A DNA stretch of 64,000 bases from Cyathus striatus (Eukaryota > Basidiomycota > Agaricomycetes > Agaricales > Nidulariaceae): the NCBI GenBank assembly GCA_025738555.1, contig JAOVFP010000016.1, forward strand, positions 1,984,001 through 2,048,000. Direction: 5' to 3'. Both the position numbers and the translations under genes were made by a program. Within the stretch, counting starts at the first letter, position 1; each line of letters begins with the position of its first letter. The notes under the pieces are model-generated. The model was not told the DNA's origin. It searched no databases and saw only the letters and a list, made by a program, of their open reading frames with translations. This document shows, in pieces, positions 1,639-48,006 of this stretch.

Positions 1639-2022
1639 GGTGCGGGAGAGGGACGATGTCGTTTGTTCCGGTGGGAGTTTTTATGTGCTAGGTTTGAAGG
1701 ATACAAGGTTATCATCCACGTATTTCAAACTCCGGTACATCCGATCTGGTATAATACCTGTCAGACGAATCTTATGTCCACTGCGTTATCTTCCCTCGTT
1801 AACTGGACAGGGATGTGAATAGCTGTAGTAACGGTCCTTGTGCTTGTGCAGGGGTTGGAGAAATCGGTTGTGCGGATTGTTGTGCTGCTTGCTGTTACGG
1901 GTAATACAACTTAGTTCCATGCTTATCGCACGTGTGTTGTCAGGATAACAATGTTGTTCACCCGATTAAGCTTAAAGAACATCCATGCTGTGCAGTCTGC
2001 ATGTTCGCTGGTATCCAGAAAG
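1639..2022. other. Intergenic host DNA up to the transposon insertion site
   Basis: No credible gene is seen. The last six bases (2017-2022, AGAAAG) are the left copy of the target-site duplication of the large element that follows; the right copy is at 16926-16931. Confidence 0.6.
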
Positions 2023-2048
2023 TATGGAAGGTCGGACTGCCACGCTAC
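2023..2048 (+). repeat. Left terminal inverted repeat of the 14.9-kb element
   Basis: 26 bp, identical as reverse complement to 16900-16925. The outer end begins TATGG and the inner end stops at CGCTAC, after which the two ends diverge. Confidence 0.92.
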
Positions 2049-2469
2049 CTTTTTTTGATTGGATCAGCATCGGCACACATGCCGAGTATAGGACCCCAGA
2101 AACTAAGTACAACCCAAATATGGAAAACAAGAAATAAATATTTTTGCTTCTCTTTTAGCCGCCAGGGAAGCGGGAAGCATACACATCTAATCAAGCTTCA
2201 TGGATCTAATCAACCTGGCAGATGATTAATCTTGAGCTGGTTGTGCTGGCTCTCAATGTGCTTCTGACCAGGAATAGCTCACTGCTATCAATTTAAGGGA
2301 GGTGCCTTTAACATTAAGTGAATATTGAGTAAATAGCATATACAACTACTGCAGCAATAATAATAAAAAGTTGAAAGAGCATGTTGCAGTGCACTGGGCA
2401 CTCTGCAAAGTCAGGTGTAGAAAACCTAGAGTAAAGCTCAGCATTGCAAACAGCGGTTGATATATTGAA

Positions 2470-3400
2470 TAAGTACCTAGAGTAGTTCACTAGGTAATTG
2501 AAAGTATAAATACAGTATGCACATGCAATGAGAACTCACCTCAGCATTATGAACAGCGGCTGAGGTGTACTAACTAAAGTACAAGCGTTTATATACACTG
2601 AGAGTCCTTTACTCCAAGATAAAGGAGCAAACTACATACCAGGGAAAGTGTGTGGCACATAGTGCACTGTGCAATGCCATAGCAGTACAAGGTAATAAAG
2701 TATTAGTGAAAAAAAAGGAGGGCAGCATAGTGAAGTATAAAGTACAATATAGGCAACATATTACCTTGCCACACAGTTAGAATATGACCTTGGTGGTGAG
2801 GCGGTGCCTGCTGAGTGAATATGAGTAGGCATGGTCTAATGGAAAGTGGGAATGTGAGTCAGACTTGGAGGCGTTTGATTATTCAACAAAAGGCTTGAAA
2901 GAAAGAAAAAAGAAAGAAGAGGGCTTAGGTGAAAGGGCATAAATAGTGCGGTGGCCCTTGGACCTTGGGGGCTTAGATGAGAGGCATAAATAGAGATGCA
3001 GCCCTTTGTAGAAATCCTAGAGTAAAACACTAGGTAATTATGAGCAAGGGTACAGTATGTACAAGCAATAAGAACTCACCTCAGCATTGTAAACAACGGC
3101 TGAGGTGTACTAGCTAAAGTACATGGTATATATACACTATGAGTCATTTACTCTGAGATAATGGAGTAAACTACATAGAGAGGAAAGCTTGAGGTCAAGA
3201 GCGTGCTGTGCAGTGCAGTAGCAGTATAATACAAGTAAGTATTAGTGCATAGGAAAAGGCGGCATAGTGAAACCTGTGGAGTACAATATATACAATATAT
3301 TTACCTTACCACGCATTGTGCATGTGACCTTGGTGGCAACTGAATGAATACGGGCAGGCGCGGTCTAACAAAAGTGGGAGCGTGAGTTGGACCAAGAGGC
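2470..3400 (+). repeat. Two diverged direct repeats of about 530-540 bp, subterminal
   Basis: The block near 2470-2860 recurs near 3010-3400. The anchor AACTCACCTCAGCATT lies at about 2533 and again 540 bp later. Shared features include a TATATACAC segment, a palindromic stretch around TTTACTC...GAGTAAA, and a GTGACCTTGGTGG-like stretch. No coding sequence is seen in 2049-3442. A structural or transposase-binding role near the left end is inference. Confidence 0.75.
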
Positions 3401-3442
3401 ATTTGCATAATCCAATACCCTTTGACCTTGGATGGTAGCAGT

Positions 3443-6400
3443 TTATTCCTCTGTAGGGAATATTGAAGGGAGGCGGAACCAGATGCAATATTTATTGCAT
3501 TGGTGTTGCTTTGGAAAGGCCCTGAATCCTTCTGCAAGGTTTCCTCCACCAAATAAAGTACCAGTGAACTCCCTAGCCAAATAACAGCATTAGTAGACCA
3601 TAGTGGGATGGATTAAAGTTTACAAAACAGCGTACTCAGGAGAAGTCATGATCTGTGGGTCTGTTAAAATTGTACAGCTTCCTGCAGAAGAATAAGAATT
3701 TTTTTTTTACCAAGGGCACTTTAAAACTCACCCTGGTAGTCAGATATATAGGCCAAGCATCCAGTAAGCATGTACTGCACATGCTGTGAAAAGGCAAGGA
3801 ATTCAGCAGTTCTGTAGAAATCCCCATGATCCTCTTCAGTCCATTTCTCTGGTAGCCCTGCATGCGCATTGTGAAGAAATTTAATAAATACACCTTCAAT
3901 CTTCTCTTCCAGCAGGTAGGAAGAAACTACTGCTGATGCCATGGTGTGAGTACCAGAAGATCCAGAAGGCTTGCTTATGGTAGCTGTTGAGGTAGCAATA
4001 GCAGCCTTTGCAAAACGCAACCGAGGAATAGCAAAGGGAAGAGTGGTTACTTTGCTCTCAGAAAGTTGAGAGTCTACCCACTGGTATGTAGCATCAAGCA
4101 ATGCCCCTGCCCACATCAGTATATTTCCCTCTTTCAAAAGGAACTCAAGCTCTGCACTGCCTGAGAGTCTAGGCATCTTGTTTGGGAATGCAGAATCATA
4201 TGGTCTTTTTGCCACTAGATCATAACGGCAGATGTGGCCCTCAGGTAAGCCAGTGGCAAGCATATGTCCAAACATTTCCAGAGAGTTGACAGGATTGGAG
4301 GTCTTAAAGCTACCTTTTTTTCCACCCTTTGAGGACACGCTTAGCCTAGCTGTCTCAGAAGAGCATTTCTTAGCCCATGCACTAAGCAGCGACCCTTGTC
4401 CAAGTTTGGCCAGTTCAATCAGCTCTTCCAATGACTTGGACTCAATGTGATAAAGGGATACGATTTCCTGCTTCTGGTGGACTAAGTAACTGGATTCAGA
4501 ATTTTATCACAGGGGTATAAATGACTTCTTACAGGCTAGTATGTCAGATTTTGAGATCAAGTCCCTTCCTCCAGACTTAAGTGCATCTTTCAGCTCTTTG
4601 CTTGAAAAACTTGAACTAGTAGGGAAGTGGCTAGCTGAGTTTGGATTTGGGGGCTTGAGGGGGGGGTTACATTGCTGGCAAAGTCCTTGTTTGGGGATGA
4701 AGCCTTGAGCTTTGGCCTTCTTGGTGAGCGATTTGAGACTAAAATGTTATTTGGGAATCCAAATAGCTTAACGACTTCTGGTAGCTGCTGCAAATGTTCG
4801 TCTCCCTTTTCTTGACCTTCATCTAGCCTTCTGGAGCTTTGAACTAGCCTCTGAACATAGAGGAAATGATGTTAGAGCTGGCTTAACCATAAAAGACCTA
4901 TTTACCTTGGAAACCCCTGAAGCCATTTCATTTCCTTCCTTGTTCCTCTCAGATCCCTGCAGCTTATTCGAAGCTAGCTCCTGAAGAACTTGTTATAAGC
5001 TTGCCATAGGGCCATAGTTAAATATACCTTGATAGTTGGCAATTCAGCTATCTCTATTTCTTCCCCCTCACTGGAATCAGAAATAACTATAGCTGTACTC
5101 TTTAGCTCTTTCTTTGAGCTTCCAGTTCTCTTATTTTGGGAAGTATCAGCAGCATAAGAGTCCTAAATTATAAGTTGTGAATGCTATTTCTCACTCAGTA
5201 GGGCTGTAGAATGAACTTGCCACTCTAGGTCTTTTCCCTTTGCCCTTTTGCTTTATTGAAGTAAAACTGGAACCAAAGCTAACAGCATCCATCTCATACT
5301 TAAAGGATAGTTAGCAAATAACGGCTATAAAATTTAACAGCTCTAGCAACTAACCTGATCATCCTCATCCTGATTCATTATATTATACCACTTCTCATAC
5401 TCACTGTATGATACGATAACCAGTACCTGGAAGGGGTTTTTAGGCGGTTTGAAAGTAGCCTTTGCCTTAATATTACCCCGCTTTGCAGCAGCCTTAACTG
5501 CAGCAGCTGTTGGCTCAGTCATAACTTCATTATAAAAGTAGCCTCCAGATCTAGCAACTGCCTCATCTGATTCTAGGTTGGTCCATTTCAAATCTCGTAC
5601 ATAAGCTGCATCAAAATCCCAACTGAAGGTTATCAAATCAGGACGCTTCTGAATAGCATCTTTAATGGTTTGCCTTGCAACAGCGGCAATTTCCTCCCTG
5701 AGGAATTGGCTGCAAAGCATATGGTTTCTGCAACGTTCTATAAGGGTACTATTAGACATTTAAACCAAATTCAGAATGAAAATCTCACCAAAAGGTCCCC
5801 ATACCGCTTTCCTCGCTCTGGCTTTTGAAGATTATAGGCAAATGATACAGTAACAGGAAATTTGTACTTCTCCTCTACTGTTACAGAGCCTTGCCTGGGT
5901 GGATTTCCAGCTGCCCAGCGCTTGTGGTCATTATAGTAATGCTGGTGGTTGGAGTTATATCCATAGGAAGGGGTATTAACCATTGGTCTTCCCATTGAAG
6001 CAACCTCAGGAGGGCCCATAGAAAGGCCAGAAGCTGAGTAGGGGCTCTGGTGAGCAGCAGATGAAGGCATAAGTCTTCCAACTGGTTGCTTGGGCAAAGA
6101 TACTACATTGGGTGTCTTGTACCCTAGGTCTTTATATCTTAAATGAGCTCGAGCAGAAAAATAAGAGTGGGTTTAAACCCACCAGGTCGTTGTGCTGCAA
6201 GTGTATTTTGCTTGATATTTTGAAGGTTTATACTCCTCAATGAATGACGGCTAGAAGCAGGTGCATGGGAGGCTAAAAGAATGTAAATCACTATGACATA
6301 AAGGTTGTAACTAAATAGGAAAGTTGCTGACCTATTTGAGGAGAGCTTTGATGAGGGAGATTAGGTATAGGCCACACTAATCTGCCTGGAGCCTCAGAAC

Positions 6401-6741
6401 TATGCAAGAATGCATTACCTGTAAAATACAGTTAATAGCTCCTATGAGTGAAACAAGTCTAAAGGATTCTACTTACTGGCACTGCGGCTGGAGGGCTGCA
6501 CTGTGCTTGGTTTGTTGGAATAATGAAAGTAGCAACCCTCACATAAGTGTATGATTCTTCCTGAAGGATCCCCCTTACTTCTAAGGCAAAAAATGGCCAG
6601 CTTATCAGCTGGGATCACATTCTGGCAACCTTTTTTTTCACAGATAGTGGTGGATGGATTATCACCAGTAAAACTAGCCAGTGGAATATCAGACTCAGAC
6701 ATATGAAATGTAATGGATAATGCGGTGGAAAGTAATGGCAA
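3443..6741 (-). CDS. Alpha-type protein kinase with N-terminal Cys cluster
   Basis: About ten exons. The N-terminus (6741-6477) has a CEKKGC...FCLR...LCEGC cysteine cluster that looks zinc-binding. A long Ser/Pro/Lys-rich linker follows. The C-terminal part carries the alpha-kinase signature: VAKRPY (ATP lysine), EEKIEGVFIKF, AEFLAFSQHVQY, ISDYQG, LTDPQ, then GGGN and a HQCNKYC zinc-binding tail that ends at TAA 3443-3445. The tail needs the last intron (3573-3623), which has GT-AG borders. The family phosphorylates Ser/Thr in helical targets; the substrate here is unknown. An eight-C run (4659-4666) leaves the frame off by one base, so it is either a frameshift or a base-call error. One junction near 5250 fits a GC-AG intron. 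It is divergent from the integrase. Confidence 0.8.
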
Positions 6742-6853
6742 AATAAGTTGAGGTATAGAAAGATTTATCTTTGGTTGATAAGAGTAAGAGAAAAATAGAG
6801 AAGCTAACGTCTCTGTTTTCCACTAGGGAACTGATTAAAAGCTATACAAAAGG

Positions 6854-6884
<31 letters not shown>

Positions 6885-6979
6885 CAAAGCAGTCTACATC
6901 CGTTTTAAGATTTCTTTAGGGATTTTAAAGTTTGGATACTTTGCAAGTCACATCAAAAAATTCAACTTTATCCTCTAAG
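6742..6979. promoter_or_regulatory. Divergent intergenic region between kinase and integrase
   Basis: These 238 bp separate two divergently transcribed genes, so both promoters should lie here. It contains an (AAAAC)n microsatellite at about 6856-6886. No specific binding site is recognised. Confidence 0.45.
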
Positions 6980-8797
6980 ATGCCTGCAGAGAAAGGTAGA
7001 GGTAGAAACCAATATAATCCGCTAGGTGGGTGCTGTGAATCTAATATGTAAAGGGTATTCCTGACTCACCTTATGCTAAAAGTCCCACAAGAGCTAGTTG
7101 CGCCATATATTGTGAAATACTGGTACCAGAAGAAGACAGATCTAGATATTTGGAAGGCTGTGAGGGATGAGCATGTAGACACCACAAGGTATTCTCTTGG
7201 GTAAGTATTAATATTCACTTTTATCTATTGAAATTTAAGGCTTTCTAGATATACCAAGTTTAGGATAATGAGGAAGGACATGGGCCTTCTTGGGGTAAGG
7301 CAGCAAGGTAACACTAGCGATACCATTCTAGCTAGGATGGTGGAGCTCAGGAAAATTTATCCCAATGCTGGTCGAGAAGAAATGATAAGCCTATTCTTCC
7401 AAGAGTACAAGGAGAAGGTATCACGGTAAGCATAAACTCTGTCTTGCTTGGGCTTCTTATAGTAATATGCTTCTAGCACTGCTATAACAGAATACTTCTT
7501 TAGATTTGAGCCTGATCTCATAGCAGCAAGAAAGGCAAGGAACCTTCTTAGAAAGCAGTTCTGGTCTGCAGGCCCAAATAATCTTTGGTGCTTTGACCAG
7601 CATGACAAATGGAAGCCCCGCTTTGGCCTATGCCTTCATATTGGCGTTGATCCATTTGCAGGTTATATTCTATGGCTGCGAATTTGGTGGAACAACTCTA
7701 ACCCAAGGTTAACCTGCCACTACTACTACCTTTCTGCCGTGGAGGAGTTTAATAGTACGCATAAACTTTAGTAAAACAGGAATATGATCTAGCTTACATC
7801 TAGCAACAGAGATGCCCCTGCTTACTCAAAGTGATCCTGGAACTGAGAATGTTAGAATAGCTCAAGCCAATACCTTTTTGCGACACTGGCATGACCCTTC
7901 CCTTCCAGAAGATAGCATTCAGCACCTTTGGAAGCGCAAGAAGACAAATATCAAGCCAGAAATTGAATGGAGCCAGCTTAGAAGAAGATTTACTCCAGGA
8001 TTTGAAGAAATTTTATGTTATGGAATAGAAGAGCAAGAAGATCACCCTGCGCTCTATAACACTAATGACTATCTGCATTGGTAGGTGTTAAATTTTACTT
8101 CAGGTAACCTATCTAATCCCTCTACATTCTAGTCTTGTTTTTCAATGGATATTTATACCTTGGCTACAGAGAGAGCTGGATGGGTATCGAGATAGAGTAA
8201 ATAACAAACTAAAAGAGAAAAAACAAACATAAGCTTACTCCTCATGGTCGCCCTTCTGATATCTGGAACAAACCTGAAAACTTTGATGCAAGGGACTATG
8301 GAGTAAGCTGCTCAAGTGAACAGATGTGCATTCAATCAGTAGCTAACCTCTTCTATTTCTAGATTTTACCTGACCCAGAAGCAGTCACAGAGGCAAGAGC
8401 CTTGTTGGTACCTGAAGACCACCCTGTTATGCTATTGGTACCAGCTACATTTGAACCCCATATCTCAGAGGCATACCACACAGCTGGAAGGCCTGCTATA
8501 ACTCGTGCAAATGTTTGGGAGGTATATATAAGCATATTGGAGCATTTGATTGATATGCGGGAGCATAATCTCTTTGCTGCTGAAGCTATTCAAGAATGGA
8601 TTACCTATCCTGCATCAGTAGCTCATGAAGAGAATGCTGAGCAAAGGCTCTTTCAGCAGATTAATAACGATGATGATTTTGATGACTTTGATCCAACTGG
8701 CAGTAGTGATAATATTATCTCAGTAGATTTCACAGATGATGAGAGCGATGCAATTCAAGACTGGAATGACCGGCCTTTTTTTCTTTCCACTAATTAG
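6980..8797 (+). CDS. DDE integrase-core transposase (basidiomycete integrase-core family), frameshifted
   Basis: Exons: 6980-7025, 7083-7200, 7249-7425, 7477-7754, 7804-8080, 8133-8302, 8363-8797. The protein matches the basidiomycete integrase-core family. It has a helical N-terminus (LRKIYPNAGREEM), RKQFWSAGPNNLWCFDQHDKW with the first catalytic Asp, TQSDPGTEN with the second, and IKPEIEWSQLRRRF with the likely catalytic Glu about 42-44 residues on. An acidic tail ends at 8797. A one-base frame change between 8201 and 8232 (in-frame TAA at 8230-8232, then LTPHGRPSDIW in the next frame) breaks the frame after the catalytic core. It ends about 50 bp from the convergent JmjC gene. As the only recombinase-like gene between the TIRs, it is the probable mobilising enzyme. 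Confidence 0.85.
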
Positions 8798-8847
8798 CAA
8801 TAGGTAGAGTAAACATGTATATTTACTTTATATATTTATATAAAGCA

Positions 8848-11800
8848 TCAACTTTGCCTGGAGCGCTTTGCAGAATCTGAATAAAAAATAATGTAATTTG
8901 CATTGGTAAGGTTTAGAGCTTGCTTACCTTGTTGTGAAGCAATCTCATTAGGAGAGCTGCGCTTAGATAGCTTTGCAGCATATACTGATATATAGAGCAA
9001 ATCACCAGCTCTCCTTCCATGTCTATAAATATCCAAAGCCTCTTCCCCAAGTTCTTTAGTAGAATCTTGAAAAATAAAATACAGTAAGATAAAGGAAAAG
9101 AAATTGAAAAAGAACACACCTTTAGAGCTCGCATTCGCAGTGGAGTTCAGATGCACCTCAAACTTTGGTGCACTCCACACCAGATTTTGAGCCACTATGT
9201 GCTTTCTTTCCATGCGCTCCAGTTCAGCTTGGAGCTCAGGCCAGCGCTCTGATGTCCACTCCAGTTGGCGTTCAAAGAGAGTTGTGAAGGTATTACCAAT
9301 AACTCCAAAAGGTTCTCTCAGACCTAAAGAACCAAGATGGTAGAAATTAAGAGAGTGGATTAGCCAAGCAAGCATTGGTATAAAAAGAGCGGTCCATGGG
9401 TCCTGAGCTTCAGCTTCGCCCTCCAAAAGAATTGAAAATCTTCTACAGATTTTACGAAGAAGAATCTCCATTCTGCTCCTACTGCAAATATTTTGCATGC
9501 GCATGTCATGGCTCATCAGAGATACGTCATGCCTCATAAGTGCCTCATCTTCAGGTGATTCCTCTCCAGACCCTAATCCATTGTACAAAAGTTTGTCAAT
9601 CAGAACCTGATCGGTTGTAGGCAGGTAGCTTGAAGTGCAAAGGGCGTTCTGAAGCTCTATATAGCATGCAAAGAACATAAGATCTTTGAGCCCAGACTCT
9701 GTTGCGATGTTCAGAAGGTGGCCTTTGTCTTTAAGAGAAATAAATTAGTATATTTTAGCAACTGAGCTATAAGCTCTCACCTTGGGCTTGCATATTTCCA
9801 TTCCCTAAAGTTTTGTAAAGAAAGCATGCTATTAGATTCATACGAGCTTGAAAAGAAGGGTTATCTGTATTGGTAATAATGTCGCCAGCGAAGAAGCTGT
9901 GAATAGATCCACATATCACTCTTGAAATGCAGGAGATGGGTATATAATGTCCACCATGGCAAATAGCATCCTGTAGGGTGTACACTGCATGCGGAGTACA
10001 GGGCCTCATAATCCTATACAAAAGTAAAACTTATGAATAAAGTCTATTTCTTAATAAACTTACAGGGTATCCCCTGGTTTCAAAACCACCATCTCAATTC
10101 TCCATTTGGAGTGATCAAGATATCTAACTCCAAAATTAGGATCAGTCCAAACAGTAGTGGATGAAAGAAGGTCCAGGAAAAGGGGCTCAGCAATGGCCCA
10201 AAGCTTCAGACCTGCTGCAACGCGAATAATAGTTCCTTCTCCTCGGCTATCTATATGCCAAAAATGACTAGCGCCCTGTGTTGCAGCTAGACCAAACCTA
10301 ATATCTGCAGTGGGCAATTTTTGAATGCAGTATGACTCCCCTTTAGTTCTAATGCTTGCACGAACATCACTAGCATATGTACTTGACTCTACTGCTGCAT
10401 GAGGAGCAGGAAAGGAAAGGCCATTGAGGCTCTTCTTCTTGCCTGGTGGAGCTGCTGACGCATTTAATATGTCCATAAGGGAGCCAGTCCTAACACGATC
10501 TTGAAAAGCTCCATCTTCTTCAGAAATGACAATGGACTGATCTAGATTAGTTTTAGTATCAAATGTGTTTGGGTATTGGAGGAATATACCTTGAATATCA
10601 ACAGGATCGTTGAGATCCCATCCCAGAGTTTCTAGGCCAGCTTCATCAAATTGTATTGCCATGCCTGAGCTACCCCCAATCACAATGTTCTGGGTCTGAA
10701 GCATATCCTGAACTTCCTGAGTGGACATTTTGTCAAATTCATCTTGTTGAATATATCTTAAAAGGGAATTAGCAGGGCTATCCACAAACGCTGGCCTAAG
10801 AACCCCATTTTCTTTAATATCAGAGTAAAACTTAGTAGAGGAGTTGTACATCTGCAACCAAGCTTTGTGATCCTCTTTAGTCTGTGAGTGTAAATGTCAA
10901 TAAAGTAATAGCTTGAAATGTGGGAAAAAGAATACATGAGAAGACAGCTTGTAGGAATGAGAGCGCCCACTAGCATCCCAAAGGATCAGCTCTTTATTCT
11001 GGGTGTCTGAGTACTTCTAAAGTAATGAAATAGGTAGTTAATAATCAAGAACTCTCTGGTAAAGAAAGCTTACTGTAGTCAGAAAATCTAAAGTCAAAGG
11101 TGGCTTTACTTCAAAGCATTCATCATTCTAGGCATGGATTAAAGCACAATATGCAAAGTGGAAATATTAGAACTCACCTTCAATGCTTCTAACTTAACTG
11201 CAAGGTTATCTTCAATCTTCTGGCGCTCAACAGCATTCTTTGTTAGCAGATCAGAGTATTTGAGAAAATCCTCTTCCTGGAGCGCTGAGCCACCTTTCTT
11301 CAATGCAGGGGCACCTCTCAGCTTTGGTTTTGATTTGTGCTTGTAATTTGTCTTTGAAGCACCAGCAGTTCTCCTTAGAAGAGGATCTACTTTCTGTACT
11401 CTATCTGATCGCCTCCGAGATGGCTTTTCTACTGGTGCTTGAGAGGTTGGTGAGTTCTCATGTGAGCTGACTTTGTCCCCATACTCACCTTCTTCCCCTT
11501 CTTCCTCACCCCCACTTTCTCTGTATTCATCTTCAACCCCACCCCCACCATCTTCGTCTTCTTCTGTGCCTTCGTTCTCACCCCCACTGTCTTCGTCTTC
11601 TTCTGTGCCTTCGTTCCCACCCCCACTGCCTTCGTCTTTGTCTGTGCCTTCGTTCCCGTCCCCATTACCTTCACCTTCACCTCTGCCTTCTTCCTCCTCC
11701 CCTTCTTCCTCCTCCCCACCTCTATTATTCTCTTTATTTCCACCCATTGCAACAGCCCTATCTTTTTCCCAGCCAGCTGAAAGGTACTCTGTTGCCGCAG

Positions 11801-13215
11801 TGGGAAGAGGCCAGTTGATGGGAGTTGGCAATTCCACATATGAAGTAAATATAGAAACCGAGCCATCAGATTCAATTGCATCTTCTAAGAGGCTCTTAGT
11901 GAGAGGGGTAAAACTAGAGAAGAAGAATGCGTACTTCTAGCAAAATATGTTATCTGGATTTCTTCCAGAGGATTATTATCAATATAATCTTTCCACTTGC
12001 TGTGAAGGCCCATAAAAGAACTGAACGCAGTGCTACTTCCATCAACTATAGAAAAAACAGCCAGCCAGATATCATCTTCAAGCATTTTAACTAATGGTGG
12101 GCGCTGATTCCCAATAGACTTCATGTTCTAAGGTAAGGTAATAGTAAACGCGAAGCTAATATGCATACAGTCAAATGTATTCTCACTAAGATTGTTTCTT
12201 CATGGGAATTATACCTCTTGGTAAGATCCTTTGGAACAATTGCAAGAAGGGGGAAATAAGAGCAGAAAGCTGCAGTGCATGTCTTAATTCTTTACATTCA
12301 GAAAGCAGAGAATTCAAGTTCTTTAACCGCTTTGGAGTGGAAAATAACTGATCAATGCTCTCCATGGTCTGTATATCCTCTGCAATGGCAAGGTCCCTGT
12401 AGCATTGTGGGACTTGCAAATGCCCCTCTCCCTGAAATAAACTGAGTAAGAAAATAAAATAAAGCAAGCTGTTCAAGAAAGCGCACCTTTATCATTACTG
12501 TAATGCAAAGTGCTATGCTAGCTAAGTTTTTAACCACAGTGAGAGCGCTCTTTCCTCCCTTCATTTCAGCAATTTCATTTGCTAGCCTTACTGATACATC
12601 AGGCTCCTTTGAAATGAGCCTATCGCTGATAATCTTGGAAATACAATCTCCATTAGAAACAAATGCCTGAAGCAGATCTGAAAGGTTGGAAAGCCCCTCC
12701 AAATTCTATGTAAAGGAAAGGTTAGTTGCTGAAGTCTAAAGTGTTTTAAAGGGGTTGAAATTACGAACCTCATGATTCCCCACCCAGATGTTCTGATTCT
12801 TGTGCTGTAGCACTTCTTCTATTTGAATTGAGAGCTTTCCAATTAACCTTATCACAACATCTGCTGTTCTGCATGCAGCTATGTAGTTGCAAAGGTGCTC
12901 AGTCACTGTATTAGGCAGCTTTCCAGTTGAACCTCTGAGCAGGGCAGTCTTAGGCATGCATTCAGAACCTTCATCAAGAAGGATGTCAGAAGGCCTATAA
13001 ATGGTCCAAAAGGCCATAGTTGCAATTCCTGCATCAAACCTATGAAGGCATCTAAGCAGAGGCTGCAAGCAATAAGCTCATTTCTAAAATGAAAGTCCAA
13101 TAAGGAATACCTGATATATGCTGTCCTCAGGAAGGTACTCATAGATAGGTACCTCTTTTATAAGAGCTGATGTAGATAGTGGAATCAGGCAGCGAAAAGT
13201 TGAAGAATGTGCCAT
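8848..13215 (-). CDS. JmjC/cupin-like Fe(II) dioxygenase-domain protein, two probable frameshifts
   Basis: About twelve exons and roughly 1,250 residues, read from ATG at 13215 to the stop at 8848. The order is: helical N-terminus; acidic E/G-rich low-complexity tract (about 11470-11740); basic segment KPSRRRSDR; a JmjC-like fold; helical C-terminus. The dioxygenase core shows HIDS (HxD, near 10250) and, across the 10022-10062 intron, PHAVYTL...CHGGH, giving the distal metal His. Agaricomycetes carry many such JmjC proteins; known JmjC enzymes demethylate histones or hydroxylate proteins, but the substrate here is unknown. The frame changes near 12200-12290 and again near 11936-11945 without good splice sites, so I infer two small indels; unusual introns are the alternative. 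Confidence 0.72.
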
Positions 13216-13291
13216 CTATAGCAATGAGTTGAAGCGTAAAGGGGGAGGAAGAGATCAAGGGGAGGTATCAAATATGAGCCCACAATTTTCA

Positions 13292-13423
13292 GGTCACGAG
13301 GGGTTTCGTTTTCTGTTTTTTTCCCTCGTGACCTTACTGATTACATAATGTTCAACGCCCATTCATTAGCACCCAAGTTTCAGGTCACGAGGGTTTTTGT
13401 CCTCTGTTTTTTTCCCTCGTGAC
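13292..13423. repeat. Two copies of a hairpin with stem GGTCACGAGGG / CCCTCGTGACC
   Basis: The first hairpin is 13292-13333 with an 11-bp stem and a T-rich 20-base loop. The second is 13384-13423 with a 10-bp stem. Loop sequences are nearly alike (TTTTCTGTTTTTTT and CCTCTGTTTTTTT). They lie just upstream of the JmjC start, so a regulatory or transposase-binding role is possible but unproven. Confidence 0.8.
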
Positions 13424-13639
13424 TTCAATGGTTAAAGATGCATCATGGCCCAGAGAAGTCCAGCTGAGCCTCCATTTCAGACTTTTATGTAGTATATTCG
13501 ATAGCATTCAAAATATATGTACAGGTATCTAAAGAAACCTAAATAATGCTAACAAAGCTGAATGAAACCTAATCTACAAACACAGATGCAGTAAAACGCC
13601 TCAGCATGGCAAGGCATAGAGGTTGGAGGTAGAAGCGCT

Positions 13640-14015
13640 GACGCTAACGGAGGGTTGCTGTCGTCGTCGCGATGCGCAGGGGAGGAGAAAAATGGGGGCG
13701 GGTGGGTGGGATGACGCCGATGATGCTCATGCTAGCAGCTTCGTTGCCTTCGCGACGCAGGGAGACGCTAACGGAGCAGCACCGCTGTCGTCACGACGCA
13801 CGGGGGAGGAGCAAGGATGGGGGTGGATGGGTGGCATGATGCCGACGATGCTCGTGCTGGCGACTTTGTCGCATTCGCGACGCAGGGAGATGCTAACGGA
13901 GCAGTGCCGTTGTCGTCACGACGCACGGGGGAGGAGCAAGGACGGGGGCGGGCGGGCGGCACGACGCCGATGATGCTCAGGCTAGCGGCTCCATCCCCTT
14001 CGTGGTGCAGGGAGG
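13640..14015 (+). repeat. GC-rich 125-bp tandem repeat, three copies
   Basis: The motif ACGACGCACGGGGGAGGAGC and its variants recur every 125 bp (anchors near 13666, 13791 and 13916), with a shared GCCGATGATGCTC segment. The block is far richer in G and C than the rest of the window. Open frames on both strands arise from the composition and repeat; none shows a domain. Confidence 0.85.
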
Positions 14016-14044
14016 TAGGGGCTGGAGGCGCCGTCGTTTTTGCG

Positions 14045-15010
14045 TATGAGAGGGAGCAGGCGCAAATGGCAACTGCGGTTGCGAGGTGGAGGAAGGGGCT
14101 GGGTGCCTTGGCATCGACGCCGTTATTGATAGCCGGCGTCGTTATCTTCGCGGCGCAGGGATGAGGGAGGAGCGAGAAGGGGGCGGGTGGGTGACTTCAC
14201 GCAGACGCTGCTCATGCCAGCAGTGTCGTCACTGAAGGGAGGAGGTGCCGGCGTCGTTGTATTCTTGTGCACGGTGCAGGGATGAGGGGAGGAGGAAGGA
14301 GGAAGTGGGCGGTTAGTGCAACGCAGACGCTGCTCATGCCGTTAGAGTAGCGGGCAGAGGAACGTCGCGATGCGTATACCCCAGATGCAAGAGCTCGAAG
14401 GCTCTTCGACGTGTCACTATTCAGACACGTAGTTTACGATCTTAAAAAAAAATGAAATGAGCTGGTACGCCATGTCGAGAGCGTGTATGAAACGCACCAG
14501 CTATTTGGAGACGCCCCGGACCTTGCCCCCATCCCAGCCACCCTCTCCCTTCCAAGTACCGGCGGGACTTTCGAGCGATCGAGGAAACCCCCGCGTAACT
14601 TCTCGAAGGCTAAAAGAAACGAACGAATGTTACGCGCCTCGATATATGACGATCCTTGATGAGCGGCTAGGTATCAGGAATAGCAGCAAAACGTACCATC
14701 TCAGTTGCTGTTGTGGATGAGAGGGAGCAAGCGCGAATGGCGGTTGCGGTTGCGAGGTGGAGGAAGGGGCTGAGTGCCCTGGCATCGACCCCGCTATTGA
14801 TAGCCGGCGTCGTTGTCTTCGTGGCGCAGGGATAAGGTGAGGAGCGAGGAGGGGGGTGGGTGGGTGACTTCACGCAGACGCTGCTCATGTCAGCAGCGTG
14901 TCGCCTAAGGGAGGAGGTGCCGGCGTCGTTGTCTTCATGTACGCGGCGCAGGGATAAGGGGGGAGCAAGGAGGGTGGGTGGTTGGCGTGACGCAGGCGCA
15001 GATGCAATCT
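14045..15010 (+). repeat. Direct repeat of about 300 bp, copies 671 bp apart, GC-rich
   Basis: The segment about 14045-14345 (beginning TATGAGAGGGAGCA) recurs at about 14716-15010 (GATGAGAGGGAGCA). Shared sub-blocks include GTTGCGAGGTGGAGGAAGGG, ATTGATAGCCGGCGTCG and CTTCACGCAGACGCTGCTCA. Between the copies and on to 15550 I see no recognisable gene. The tract separates the divergent JmjC and TET/JBP genes and probably holds the TET/JBP promoter. Confidence 0.8.
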
Positions 15011-15554
15011 GCTCATCGATGCGGAGACGAGGTGGCGGAGGAATGGGCTGGGCGTCCTGGCATCGGTGCCATTATTGCCAGCTGGCGTCGCTGTCTTCGT
15101 GGCACAGGAGGGGAAGTGGGAGGTCGCCACTAAGGGAGGAGGAGGGGTGGCTGTGGAGGCGAGATAGCGGAGGAAGGGGCTGGATGTCCTCATCGCGACG
15201 ATGTAGCGGAGGGGGGCGGCTTGTCTCGAAGATTTTTGAGTTGCAGGAGCGCCCTGCATTGGATTTTCCTCCTCGCCGCCTCGCGACGTTTGCGTCCGTG
15301 TTGATTTCGTCAAGTCGCTCGGCCGCTGGGTTAAAAAAAGAGCGTTGGATGGTTGAGGGGTAGAGCGGGCTTGGTGCAGGGTGAGGTGGAGGCAGAGGGA
15401 GTCTCAGGCTTGAGCTTGAAAGTTGAAGAGGTGCAGAACGGCGACGATGCGTTCACGTGACCTTGGTCGCGAAGATTATAACGCTCAACAGGTTATCCAT
15501 CGCTGCCAGTTCATCAACCAACTGCTGCTCCCTCAAGCTTGTTGCAGTTTTCTA

Positions 15555-16767
15555 ATGGTAAGATTGCTATTTATTCAATTTATACAACCTTTAATAAGTT
15601 AACTAGCCTCCCTATCACCAACAGCTGCCTTTGCATCTGAAAGCACAGCTCCCTACGCGCCATATCCGCATCAAGTATGATATCGAGAGCACCAGTGAAA
15701 ACGTTACCATACCTGGATTTGAAGCACGACTCTCTGACAAGGTTTACTTGAGCAGCTTACCTGTAACTTTGGATGCCGTGAAGCTGAAGGGCTATAGAAT
15801 TGTTAAACCTGACCCTCTGCTGTGCGTGTTTTAATTAGCAGCTTAGGCTCTTGCTCCTTTCTTAGCCCTTCTCTGTTAGGCGTGACTCCCCTATCATTGA
15901 TTCCAAGCGTCGCATTGTGGGTGTTGTAATACCTGCTTCTAACGGCGCTCAACCTTCTTTGCAACTAATGGCTGGAAAATTGGAAAATTGGCAGAAGGAG
16001 CTTCCTGACAGGATACATCAGCACTTTGCTCGTGGAGAGTTCTCCTTTGGAACTATTGGTTTCTCTCATGGACAAGGTCGGACAGAGCCACTTAACTTTA
16101 ACACTGACAGGGTGACTGCATCTGTAATGCTGAAGGTAACAGAAGATAGTGAGTTTCAAAAGCTTGCTGAGCGTCAGTGGTGTGAGTGATGGCTTCAAAT
16201 CATTCAGTGTATAGGGAAATAATAAGGATCTTATACTTAGGTTATTATAATAAATGGAATCCTAAAGTGTGCAGCTACACTCAGCTGCATCTATCTGCGC
16301 TACAAAAGCACAACAAGGAAAGTAGCCTTTGCTACCCTTTTTCAAAAAGCTTTTACCCAGCCTTAACTGTCAACTTTGGGCCCAGAACTATTTGCGGCTG
16401 TCACCGCGATGTCAAAAATCTATCTTTTGGCTGGTGTGCGATCACTGCCTTGGGGAATTATGATTGGACTGCTGGGGGGCATTTAGTACTTCATGAATTT
16501 TTGCTTGCCATTGAATTCCCTCCAGGCTACACTATTCTGATCCCATCTGCAATTATCACACATAGCAATCTTCCAATTTCTGGAAGTGAAAAGAGGTTCT
16601 CATTTACGCAATTTGCAGCAGCAGCTATCTTTAGGTTCACTGAGCATGGCATGAAAGGCGATGCTGAATACTTTGGGGAGGACAGTGTGGCTTCAAAGCA
16701 GTCTCATCATGCATTAGCTAATTATTTTAATACTGGGATTGGGAAATATCAAAAAATGGAATGCTAG
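15555..16767 (+). CDS. TET/JBP-family 2-oxoglutarate Fe(II) dioxygenase
   Basis: Coding exons 15625-15821, 15880-16181 and 16241-16767 splice with GT-AG borders into one intact frame of about 342 residues. Just before them, the ATG at 15555-15557 abuts a GTAAGA donor; the true start may lie further upstream. The order of motifs matches fungal TET/JBP proteins: IPGFEARLSDKVYLSSLP near the N-terminus, then FYPALTVNFGPRT and CGCHRDV (HxD iron ligands at 16402-16410). These are followed by GNYDWTAGGHLVL, IEFPPGYTILIPSA, THSNLPI (distal His, 16561-16563) and KRFSFTQ (2-oxoglutarate Arg). All expected metal and cosubstrate residues are present. The family oxidises 5-methylcytosine in DNA; activity here is inferred. 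It is the only undamaged gene of the element. Confidence 0.88.
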
Positions 16768-16899
16768 AGGTCATAGATTGGACTATAGATTAGATACCGC
16801 TACAACATATAATTTCTTAATTGTCTGCATCTGGTATAGAAAGGGTTACGGGGGCTTGATGGTCGCTTAACCTCAAATCATGTCGGCTTGATGGCCGAC

Positions 16900-16925
16900 G
16901 TAGCGTGGCAGTCCGACCTTCCATA
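16900..16925 (-). repeat. Right terminal inverted repeat of the 14.9-kb element
   Basis: A perfect reverse complement of 2023-2048, followed directly by AGAAAG at 16926-16931, the second copy of the target duplication. Confidence 0.92.
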
Positions 16926-17209
16926 AGAAAGCCAAGCTGAGAACCATCGTGAATGTATAGCAGTACATGAGAGTACATGGAACTTGGTAACTTCTAGCTG
17001 TATTATAATTAGAAGCACATTTACCAGGGATCTCAAACTCGGAGCCTTCATGTCATCCAAGGCCTCGACCGGTGATAACATTCTTATTGAGCAATAATTA
17101 GCAGAACAACATGTGCCTTGAAGAAAAACATAGGGGAATACAGCGAAAAGATATAACGCATAAACCAAGCAACAAATCTAAATTCCTCCCTCTCCCTTCC
17201 CAGTTATAT

Positions 17210-43856: not shown

Positions 43857-45321
43857 ATGGCTAGAGAACAAAACAGAAAGCATATGTATTCTCAGACAGA
43901 AAAGTTCAAAGCCCGCAAACGTGCACTCCGAGATCTAGAAACACTTGCGATCCTTCTTCTCGCAGATGAAAATGACGAAGATGACGAGATTGCTGCTTTG
44001 GGAATTGCTCATATTGCATTGAATGAGGCAACACTGCTTCGGAACATGCGCTTTGGGAGGTATGGAAGGTGAGGAATGTATAACCAAGAGAAGGCAGACC
44101 AGTTCTATGAGCTGCTGATGACACAGTTCTCAAACTGCCAGTTCAAATCATGGCTTCGGTTCGTCTCACAATCTCATTCTCACATTGTATTCATATTACT
44201 AAGTATCAGTTTAGCATGGATCGTGAATCATTTTGCAAGCTTGTTGATTTCATAAAAGAGGATCCAGTATTTGTTAGTCGAGGCCGCAAGCATCAGCATC
44301 CAGTTGAGCATCAACTTGCAACATTTCTCTGCTGTGTTGGAGCAGAAACTGGAGTTAAAGTGGCAGGTGTTATGGCAATATCAGAAGGTTCCACTTATAA
44401 CCACATGAGACGTGTTACTAAAGCTCTTCGTAACTTGCGCCCCCAGTTTCTTCGGTGGCCTACTCCAGCTGAGCGTGATGATGAAGCTAGAAAAATGGAG
44501 GAAAGTGGTTCTTTCTTTCCTGGACAGATAGGTTCTGGAGACAGAAGCTACATCCGCTTACAAGACAAGCCAAAGGTCAATCCTTTTGCATACTGGTGCT
44601 GCAAGAAGTTTTATGCAGTAAGTACTAATATCCTCTATATTTATCTAGCATTGACTCAAAGTAATTGGTGTACCACTTAGTTAAATATTCAAGCAATTGT
44701 TAATAATCAAAGCCAATTTACATCCTATGAACTTGGCTGGCCTGGTTCTGTTCAAGATAGTCGTGTTTTCAAGAACTCAGATCTATGGCTCAATCAAAAA
44801 GAATATTTTAGACAGCATGAATACATTCTTGTGGATAAAGGTGAGAGTACTGTTCCGCATGATAATACATACCTGACATCAATGTTGCAGGCTATCTGCT
44901 CACACCTTTCTCTATTCGACCATTCAACGATCATGATCTCACGAGCAACCTCAATGAAGCTGGGAACCGTAAGCACTGGAACCAAGCTCTTTCTTCTATT
45001 CAGATTGCAGTTGAACATGCATTTGGTCATTTAAAAGGTCGTTTTCCTATTTTACGGTCACTTCTGGGATGAGACATGAAGTCCATATATCAACTTGTTG
45101 AAGTTCTAATGATTCTGCATAATATTTTAGAGGGGTTTACAGATGACCCCATTACTATAGCTAATTTTAATGGACAAGATGACCAAGATGCACAGGAGGT
45201 AGTAGGAGGGGAAGAGGCTGAGGACGAGGTGACAATTGAACTTAATGGTGATAGTAACATCTTACATAGACAAGGAATATTGCGCTACAAAGAGCTTCTT
45301 GCATACTTCCTATTGCAGTAG
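43857..45321 (+). pseudogene. Harbinger DDE transposase with two in-frame TGA codons
   Basis: The reading order is N-terminal helices, GSGDRSYIRL (first catalytic Asp), PFAYWCCKKFYA, GWPGSVQDSRVFKN (second Asp), DKGYLLTPFS, RKHWNQALSSIQIAVEHAFG (Glu), LKGRFPILRSLLG and MILHNILE. Introns near 44158-44213, 44619-44691 and 44842-44890 fit GT-AG. The DDE triad is present, but TGA interrupts the frame at 44070-44072 and at 45070-45072, the latter where relatives have Trp. These look like C-to-T or G-to-A changes. The copy is probably inactive. Confidence 0.85.
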
Positions 45322-45354
45322 ACTACATATCATACTACCCTACTATGCAATAAA

Positions 45355-47317
45355 CTACTGAAGCTTCCACTTTTTCCTCAGTTCCCTGCCTTCCGCAATG
45401 ATATCCGGATCTGTATGAGACGCCATAGCCATAACCATTTCCCACCTTTTCATCTCCATCGCAAGTTTGTCACGCTCCATCTGCAGGGCTGTCACCTGCT
45501 GCCTTTCCTGACACTCCTCCTCCTCATGCTGATCATGCCTGTGTGCAAGCTCAAGCTTTTCTTTAGCAATGGTATCGGCACTATGGGCTTTCTGCTTGAC
45601 AGCATTCACAGTCTCGACCAGTAGCTGGTGGTGGCTATCGATGTGCTCATTGCTTGATGAACATTTAATGGTGGAAGAACCTGAGCCTTTGGGCCGTTTG
45701 CAAGCAGAAGCAGGCAGTCCATCATTTCCACCATCCGAGTCACTGTCATTATCATCCGAAAGGGGTGATCGTGAGTTGAATGCCCACTCGTGCACAACAT
45801 CGACATTGTCATGGGCACTGTAAACAAACAATGAACTGTAAGAAGATATACCAAAGGCAAAAGAGAACATACACATGATCGATCATCTCAAATATTTTCG
45901 ACGCTTTGAACTCATCCAATACAGCATGCGAGAACCCATATGATGTCATCTTTCGTCTATTTCCTGCAGCTTTGGTGGCCTGGGTGGACTCATCATCCCC
46001 ATCCCCACCACCTGTGTGTTCATCGCATAGTCGGACTGCTTTGAACTTCGCCCACTGGCCATTCCAATAAGATTGGATAACCTCAACTGGAACATCTTGA
46101 AGAATTCCATTTGCAATCTGCAATGTTGCATGAGGAAAAGAATAGCAACAATAATAGAGTACACACCTTGATCCACAGCGAATTCTGAGCCAACTTAAAC
46201 TTTGGCCAAAGGTCCACTTGCATGATGTATGCAACAATCTTCAACTTGTCACTCTCTGAAAGCAAGTGTCATTCATTGTTGCTGATGTCAACAACAGAAG
46301 GTCCATCCCCATCAAAGGGATCAGGATGTGGCATAGCGACCTTTAACACAGCTGCCTGCTGCTGCCACTCAGTAAGCTTCATAATCTCGTCATCCAATGT
46401 CCCTCCAGTCCTTCGATTCCATGCACCACTCTTTCCGCCAGCTCCAGCACCCTTTGCACACCCACACTTTGACTTGGCTACCTCCTTGGCCACCTCCTTG
46501 GTCTGAGTCTTAGAAGCTGGCTTTGCTTTCATAGCTGTGGTTGCTTTTTTGGGTTTGAGTGCTGGCATGACAGGTGGAACTTCAGGAATGAGCTGAACAG
46601 ACGGGTTAGGGGTGACAGCAGGTGCTGGAGCTGGGGTGGTGTGAATAGGCATGAGAGAGGGATGACCCTGTACATTGGTACGAGTTGGGGTGCCAGGATA
46701 TGCAGCAGCAGGAATGTGCATAGCTTGAGTTTGAGTCAAGTATGGAGTAGGGGAACCTATATGTACACATGCATTAGAAATATAGTAAACTTACAAAGAG
46801 AACACGTACCAAAATCCATTGGAAGACCTTTCTTAATCCTTTGCCTCATGTATCCGGCTTGAGCTGCAGTCATATTCTCCTTCCCAGGATGGACACAAGA
46901 TCCTTCATGATATCCTTCTTGCATGAAAGGTGATGGTGAATAGGGTGAATAGGGCTGGTATCAATGATTGGGAACAGGCTGAGGAGGTGGGGACTGGCTC
47001 CAGTCAAAGCCAGGTGAAGACAGGCATCCAAAAGAGTCAATTGAGGGCAGTGTCACCGTGGAGCACTGAGAGCTGTTTGGTGTTGTTGGAGTGTGAAAAG
47101 GTGTCAAGTACCCTGGGTTCTCTAAGATTAGATAGTATGGGCGCTCAATGAACATGTAGCATACCTTCAGCCTGTGATCTCTCCATGGCACACTACACCA
47201 AAGTGCCAGCTCATCACTCCGGAGTCCGAGTCCCTCTTCGTTTCGCACAGAGTGTTGTTCAATCTCCACCTGAAAGCTCATCACTCCCCTCTTACTTGGC
47301 ATCAACGTACCATGCAT
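45355..47317 (-). pseudogene. Harbinger accessory DNA-binding protein, one in-frame TGA
   Basis: It is convergent with the transposase, with 33 bp between stops. The N-terminal part is Pro/Thr-rich, followed by a Lys/Ala-rich basic stretch and KCGCAKGAG. A helical SANT/Myb-like region comes next (DKLKIVAYIMQ, EVIQSYWNGQWAKFKAVR), then a C-terminal coiled coil (REL and QxxE repeats) ending KKWKLQ. Harbinger elements need such a partner for nuclear import and end binding. A TGA at 46961-46963 splits the first exon from PYSPYSPSPF, so the copy is probably broken. Confidence 0.7.
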
Positions 47318-47496
47318 CTCAAAAGCTTCCGCATGCCTCCAAAGGCTGAAAGTTTTTAGAATTGAGTAGGGCTAATATCTATCTTGCCTTTGAAATGTAC
47401 GTCTCCGAGCAATATCAGATGAATGATCATGAATCGATAGCTTTGCATTTTGAATGATGCTGTACGACGATGGCATGAACTAGAAATCACAGTGGT

Positions 47497-47770
47497 CAGC
47501 ACACATTATCATTGACAGAACAGTTCAAGGCTTGCAAGAAAGCTCTCCAAGATCTCAAAGCACTTGCCATCCTCCTTGCTGATGCAGATGATGAGATCGT
47601 TGCCCTAGGATTCGCATAAATCACTCTGAGTGAAGGACGACTGATTAGAAACAGTCATTGGCGAAGATATGGAAGGCAGGGTCAATACAGTCAAGAGAAA
47701 GCGACACAGTTCTATGATTTACTCTTGAATAGGTTCTCAGACTGCTGTTTCAAGTCATGGCTTCAGTAAG
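47497..47770 (+). pseudogene. Truncated transposase N-terminus of the outer Harbinger element
   Basis: The translation matches 43890-44165 (QFKACKKALQDLKALAILL; then SQEKATQFYDLLLNRFSD and FKSWLQ). An in-frame TAA follows GLGFA. Homology stops at the donor-like GTAAGTATGA, and no DDE part follows. Confidence 0.75.
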
Positions 47771-48006
47771 TATGACTTCATGATTCTTAGAGACACTCTG
47801 TGAACTTGCCATCATGCGCCCAACCTGTCAAAATTTCGTCCATTGCCAGCTGGTCATATCCATATGCTCACATACGCTATTTCAGTCTCCGCTTTAAATG
47901 TCTCGCCCTTTACTTGGCATCAGTGCACCACGTAACATCAGGGTCTCTCGCGTAGGACCAGAAAAATAAGCAGGAAATAAGCAAAGTACAATAGAGTAGG
48001 ACTATT

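Follow-up and report, generated by a model that had tools for sequence, protein, structure and literature searches.

A complete transposon with IS3EU features in Cyathus striatus carries a JmjC gene and a TET/JBP gene beside its integrase-kinase core

A 64-kb stretch of the genome of Cyathus striatus (assembly GCA_025738555.1, contig JAOVFP010000016.1, positions 1,984,001 to 2,048,000; the whole stretch is called the window) holds a complete transposon with four genes, which encode a DDE integrase, an alpha-kinase, a JmjC protein and a TET/JBP-type 2-oxoglutarate dioxygenase. With a probability of about 0.8, this element is a member of IS3EU that is built on an integrase-kinase core and has gained the JmjC and TET genes, most likely as an anti-silencing module whose eraser activities are predicted from the protein families. 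The two genes suggest how the element could escape being switched off. If both genes act as is typical of their families, a single selfish element would counter both DNA methylation and histone methylation, and the near-identical copies, the empty site, the short riders and the TET-free relative in one genome would make a test bed for the share of each eraser in this escape.

Ends and copies of the element

The element is a real, complete and recently mobile cut-and-paste transposon. Its borders, which the original prediction had placed to the base from the terminal inverted repeats (TIRs) and the target-site duplications (TSDs), are exact (Table 1). Within the window the TIR occurs at just these 2 sites when up to 3 mismatches are allowed, and 100 dinucleotide shuffles gave 0 matches. 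Searches of the fungus's own genome were made in the assembly from which the window comes (G000; 107 Mb, 24 contigs). There, 12 matches to a 19-base TIR pattern (at most 1 mismatch) form 6 inward-facing pairs, and the backwards control has none. The 77-base left end is found at 8 places. Seven of them have both TIRs, with 3-4 mismatches in the C23 copy, and a perfect 6-bp duplication, so the further copies that had been predicted are indeed there. No two of the seven duplications are alike (AGAAAG in the window, and CGCTTT, GTTATA, CTCTTC, CAAAAC, ATTCTC and TATAAG). At the eighth place (C10, 124.8 kb), the right TIR was not found with up to 7 mismatches in the roughly 24 kb inspected.

Four of the eight, the window copy and those named C10b, C23 and C10a, are long and contain the integrase, kinase and JmjC genes. 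The TET gene is present in three of these, and the fourth long copy is without a right end. The C10b and C23 copies carry all four genes together with TIRs and TSDs. C10b and the window copy are 99.7% identical and stand at different sites with different TSDs. The aligned parts of C23 and C10a diverge by about 7-26%, depending on the region, and about 1 kb of the left noncoding part of the window copy (2414-3423) has no counterpart in C23. An empty site, also expected from the original prediction, was found for the C23 insertion: its joined flanks agree at 658 of 660 bases with an uninterrupted stretch of C24, in which a single TATAAG stands where the insertion has two. This stretch may be the homologous chromosome or a duplicated segment. 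The search for empty sites covered the window copy and C10b as well and found none for them in this assembly.

The other four copies (C4, C5, C12 and C13) are short, 3.8 to 7.9 kb, and blastn aligns them with the window copy only at their ends and in a short noncoding repeat. No match of the four proteins lies inside them, among the matches listed. They are non-autonomous riders with the same ends. In the 7.9-kb C5 rider lies an additional long reading frame interrupted by in-frame stops (L022 1391-4612). The short relative on C4, 97% identical to this rider, lacks the frame, which is apparently an insertion or a captured gene.

The integrase-kinase core and the probable affiliation with IS3EU

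All four genes named by the original prediction are present. They are arranged as two divergent pairs in series, in the order alpha-kinase (-), integrase (+), JmjC (-) and TET (+). The gene models were built by hand with GT..AG introns and checked against the copies; two kinase donors read GC in C23 and C10a. Because the genes are spliced, the single open frames of the element gave no Pfam match above the cut-off. A frame break that is seemingly common to both JmjC subfamilies is in fact an intron.

The DDE integrase would bind the TIRs and act by cut-and-paste, inserting the element at a 6-bp staggered cut, with catalysis as expected of its family. D145, D207 and E303, which we chose as the predicted catalytic triad, are invariant in 19 sequences (ours and 18 of the 120 homologues listed). 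The alpha-kinase, transcribed divergently from the integrase, is its core partner in this genome. With its last exons included, the kinase matches PF02816 at 2.5e-14 (54.2 bits against a cut-off of 21.3) over positions 72-185 of the 185 in the profile, the first part being unmatched.

The kinase had been taken for cargo, and the genome contradicts this. In a census of integrases that is a lower bound (87 of 188 candidates were scored, giving 43 loci), an alpha-kinase lies within 12 kb at 36 of the 43 loci found and is divergent from the integrase in 36 of 36, against a chance expectation of 0.5. Copies of the present family account for 4 of these 36. In addition, a relative of 7,187 bp occurs twice on C10 (L064 and L065, with TSDs CATTCG and CGTTGT). 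It shares with the element the divergent integrase and alpha-kinase, 6-bp TSDs and TATGG..CCATA ends (TATGGAAAGTC..), but is about half as long, and every reading frame of at least 100 aa in it belongs to or overlaps the divergent pair; no JmjC or TET match is found in it among the matches listed. From the pairing at so many loci and from this pair-only relative, it follows that the alpha-kinase is a core gene of the IS3EU pair in this genome. Such IS3EU pairs are abundant in this genome. A kinase is missing at seven of the listed integrase loci, and no listed integrase lies within 12 kb of 18 kinase loci.

IS3EU elements generally have TA..TA ends and usually 6-bp TSDs (Kojima, 2023, PMC10045372). 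IS3EU elements with a TET gene were published in December 2025 from seven rust species (Pucciniales) and from Tuber indicum; the rust families have 6-bp TSDs and TAYGG..CCRTA ends, and TET lies between the transposase and an alpha-kinase opposite to it (Kojima, 2025, PMC12730594). The present element is like them in its 6-bp TSD, its ends of the same type (TATGG..CCATA), its DDE transposase, its TET/JBP gene and its opposed alpha-kinase. It is unlike them in that TET lies outside the integrase-kinase pair, beyond the JmjC gene. By its ends, TSD length, integrase family and kinase, the element fits the known IS3EU superfamily. It is very improbable that the element nevertheless represents a separate superfamily: PF24764, the Pfam family of the integrase, is a broad model and the comparison with IS3EU was made by published features, but TSD length, termini, and the alpha-kinase with its orientation all match those features.

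From Agaricomycotina, the sections consulted report TET genes in other superfamilies only, and TET genes move between transposon superfamilies (Kojima, 2025, PMC12730594). Among them, Kyakuja/Zisupton (KDZ) transposons of Agaricomycetes are like the element in carrying a TET/JBP gene. They differ in that Kyakuja has 7-bp TSDs, CA..TG ends and no TIRs, and Zisupton has 8-bp TSDs (PMC12730594). Their TET is of the AG type, with Gly/Ser and Asp at two CcTET positions where the element has Asn and Cys, as counted from the HxD motif. The 6-bp TSDs of the element do not fit KDZ, and the only Pfam family that its integrase (C10b protein) matches at E ≤0.1 is PF24764 (8.6e-13).

The combination of genes had also been thought to be undescribed. 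This does not hold for integrase, alpha-kinase and TET (PMC12730594). For JmjC no precedent was found: neither JmjC nor Jumonji appears in the main text of that paper on TET-bearing IS3EU, and a literature search, which covered the beginnings of abstracts among the matches listed, found no fungal transposon with a JmjC gene and no JmjC gene together with IS3EU. The KDM7-like JmjC gene, the position of TET outside the integrase-kinase pair and the presence of such an element in a mushroom genome were not found described in the parts of the literature available to us, and the newest feature is the JmjC-TET pair.

The JmjC and TET genes

JmjC and TET are an addition to the integrase-kinase core. 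The KDM7-like JmjC gene and the TET/JBP dioxygenase gene, which form the second divergent pair and enclose a CpG-rich block, would have been gained on the integrase side. Relatives of TET occur at 5 loci of the genome, and at 5 of 5 a JmjC gene lies within 10 kb (about 0.01 expected). The TET loci on C3 and C5 (2.61 Mb) have no listed integrase match. On C3 the relative is truncated: it retains JmjC, TET and only a small remnant of the integrase, and no TIR was found with up to 8 mismatches in the 14 kb inspected.

The TET protein has 271 homologues. Of the 120 listed, those with a named source belong to mushroom-type fungi and are 31-51% identical to it. H233, D235 and H286, the predicted iron triad, and R297, which we assign as the 2-oxoglutarate Arg, are invariant in 20 sequences (ours and 19 homologues). 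In a set of 60 sequences, HxD is invariant and the distal H and R are present in at least 90%. Two homologues carry source names with JBP1/TET. The predicted model of a homologue (P0001) has a mean predicted local distance difference test score (pLDDT) of 87.6 and a predicted template modelling score (pTM) of 0.88. Since the motif reads HRD, the protein is not of the PE type (HxE). At the positions that mark the AG type, 337 (Asp) and 331 (Gly/Ser) of CcTET, it has C244 and N238, both invariant in the 20 sequences, the positions being counted from HxD and not taken from an alignment with CcTET. By these hallmark residues, the TET protein is classed as neither PE-type nor AG-type.

The JmjC protein matches a KDM7 homologue among solved structures, at 7.6e-6 as one protein and at 1e-7 as a 6-row profile, and its HID motif is invariant in 6 sequences. 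The Pfam JmjC models stay below the cut-off for it. A search of 5.8 billion proteins with its C-terminal part, within limits on length and shared words, yielded no more than 5 relatives, from Candolleomyces and Coprinopsis. JmjC relatives occupy 10 loci in the genome. Four distant ones (62-65% identical; one on C18, two on C16 and one on C9) have no listed TET or integrase nearby. The one on C18 (L069; 1122-4937) is a spliced gene adjoining a SUN-domain gene (Sad1_UNC, 3.3e-13), and no element was found around it. These distant loci, and the SUN-domain neighbour of the C18 gene, indicate that the JmjC gene of the element may have been captured from the host, with the C18 gene as a possible donor. 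Plant DNA transposons of other superfamilies are reported to carry captured JmjC demethylase genes, and are not known to have a TET partner.

A hairpin, GGTCACGAG...CTCGTGAC, stands twice upstream of the JmjC gene of the element. It also occurs at L021 4204-4244, L023 4145-4185 and L027 5779-5818, a short rider included, and upstream of the C18 JmjC relative outside any element (L069 106-147).

Conservation, CpG content and silencing

The ratio of non-synonymous to synonymous substitution (dN/dS) between the window copy and C23 is lowest for TET (0.11, 348 codons) and the integrase (0.14, 482 codons). JmjC, its acidic linker exon left out, has 0.27 (994 codons) and the kinase 0.29 (870 codons). 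The script is of the Nei-Gojobori type and its frames were picked by protein similarity, which lowers the ratio; with the same script the GC-rich block gave 0.58 and 0.52 as a control. Ratios of 0.11-0.29 indicate that all four genes have been kept by purifying selection between the subfamilies. The synonymous divergence (dS) is uneven between the genes, from 0.15 to 0.56, which suggests gene exchange between subfamilies.

This bears on whether JmjC and TET are ordinary passengers from the host, serving the host or neutral and without a role in transposition. We consider this unlikely. The JmjC relatives without a listed IS3EU integrase, one of them beside the SUN-domain gene, speak for it, as does the published switching of TET genes between superfamilies (PMC12730594). 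Mere passengers would not be expected to show purifying selection on both genes between two diverged subfamilies, nor to stay together at all five TET loci, one of which is demonstrably truncated, and the predicted targets of the two proteins are silencing marks. We prefer an anti-silencing module, in which JmjC would clear the element of repressive histone methylation and TET would clear it of 5-methylcytosine. The element, once de-silenced, would be transcribed and mobile, and the short copies that share its ends would ride along.

CpG content gives a further view of silencing. The CpG observed/expected ratio (o/e) of the gene bodies is 0.19-0.41, while most host bins of the window have about 0.8-1.1. 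In the GC-rich block that separates the 5' ends of the divergent JmjC and TET genes, the ratio is 1.06, and 0.96 in C23. Between the subfamilies, changes of CG to TG/CA exceed the GC control in the kinase, JmjC and TET genes in both directions (0.25-0.50 against 0.09-0.17), and in the block they do not (0.21 versus 0.19 in one direction and 0.18 versus 0.21 in the other). With 19 to 51 CG sites per gene, the gene counts are small. This pattern would be expected if the genes, but not the block, had once been methylated, or if the block is young. The block is a candidate for a promoter region shared by JmjC and TET. Part of it (14346-14541) matches three places on C8 at 72-79%, so it may be partly captured DNA. 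Tentatively, and with odds a little short of even, we propose a module acting on two layers, in which the genes of a histone demethylase and a 5-methylcytosine oxidase are transcribed in opposite directions from one CpG-rich region, spared the CpG decay of the rest of the element. The TET-free IS3EU relative has a CpG o/e of 0.78 (0.57 in its flanks), and is thus less depleted than the TET-bearing family, whereas the two of the four riders that were measured (0.20 and 0.26) are depleted like that family. A simple protective role of TET is contradicted by the weaker depletion of the TET-free relative. Judging from these two families, the CpG-depleted, TET-bearing one may be the one that needs an eraser.

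The lesser depletion of this relative is one of several facts that weigh against a working anti-silencing module on an IS3EU core. In the integrase gene, CG to TG/CA changes are scarcely above the control (0.28 against 0.18, and 0.15 against 0.14). The TET protein itself is matched by no Pfam model, including Tet_JBP (PF12851), which matches 3 of 20 alignment rows at E ≤0.01 and 16 of 60 homologues at E ≤0.1, and sequence searches with TET, its 60-row profile and two homologues retrieved no solved TET structure. The JmjC gene alone is not a transposon hallmark, as its four relatives without a listed integrase match demonstrate. Finally, in the window copy as assembled, single-base differences break the kinase, integrase and JmjC frames, and TET is open.

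Taken with broken frames in genes of other copies, the strong CpG depletion and the truncated copies, this last fact would also suit a dead family with decaying genes, for which dN/dS reports past selection only. We regard this as quite unlikely. Between the window copy and C10b there are 17 substitutions and 21 indels totalling 30 bases, and 17 of the 21 indels lie in runs of at least 3 equal bases. Such a pattern suggests errors of assembly or very recent change. The integrase is open (489 aa) in C10b and C23, and TET is open in the window copy, C10b and C23, in the last up to the end of the aligned stretch. The 99.7% identity of two copies at different sites with different TSDs, and the nearly identical empty site of C23, also argue against a dead family.

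Table 1. Coordinates of the element's features in the window
Feature	Position	Strand	Description
Left TSD AGAAAG	2017-2022	.	base-exact match to right TSD
Left TIR (TATGG...)	2023-2048	+	26/26 complementary to right TIR
Left noncoding part	2049-3442	.	holds 540-bp direct duplication (about 2476-2797, 3016-3336)
Alpha-kinase gene (AK)	3443-6702	-	12 exons: 6477-6702, 6332-6418, 6183-6272, 5805-6147, 5355-5748, 5224-5298, 5028-5162, 4906-4980, 4533-4850, 3732-4481, 3636-3681, 3443-3572
DDE integrase/transposase gene (INT)	6980-8797	+	7 exons: 6980-7025, 7083-7200, 7249-7425, 7504-7754, 7804-8080, 8133-8302, 8363-8797
JmjC gene (JMJ)	8848-13215	-	13 exons; acidic linker 11178-11884; C-terminal KDM7/PHF8-like JmjC domain, HxD codons 10249-10257
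Two tandem hairpins GGTCACGAGGG...CCCTCGTGAC	13292-13332, 13383-13423	.	directly upstream of JMJ
GC-rich, repeat-rich block	13601-15440	.	between divergent 5' ends of JMJ and TET; CpG o/e 1.06
TET/JBP-type 2-oxoglutarate dioxygenase gene (TET)	15555-16767	+	exons 15555-15557 (5' end uncertain), 15625-15821, 15880-16181, 16208-16767; open, 353 aa
Right TIR	16900-16925	-	26/26 complementary to left TIR
Right TSD AGAAAG	16926-16931	.	base-exact match to left TSD

Elsewhere in the window, a second CpG-depleted stretch lies at 44000-48000 (o/e 0.22-0.51). Measured in 1-kb steps, the CpG o/e is about 0.9 around the segment 53000-58000 and falls to 0.02-0.08 within it; this segment is probably a heavily methylated old repeat.

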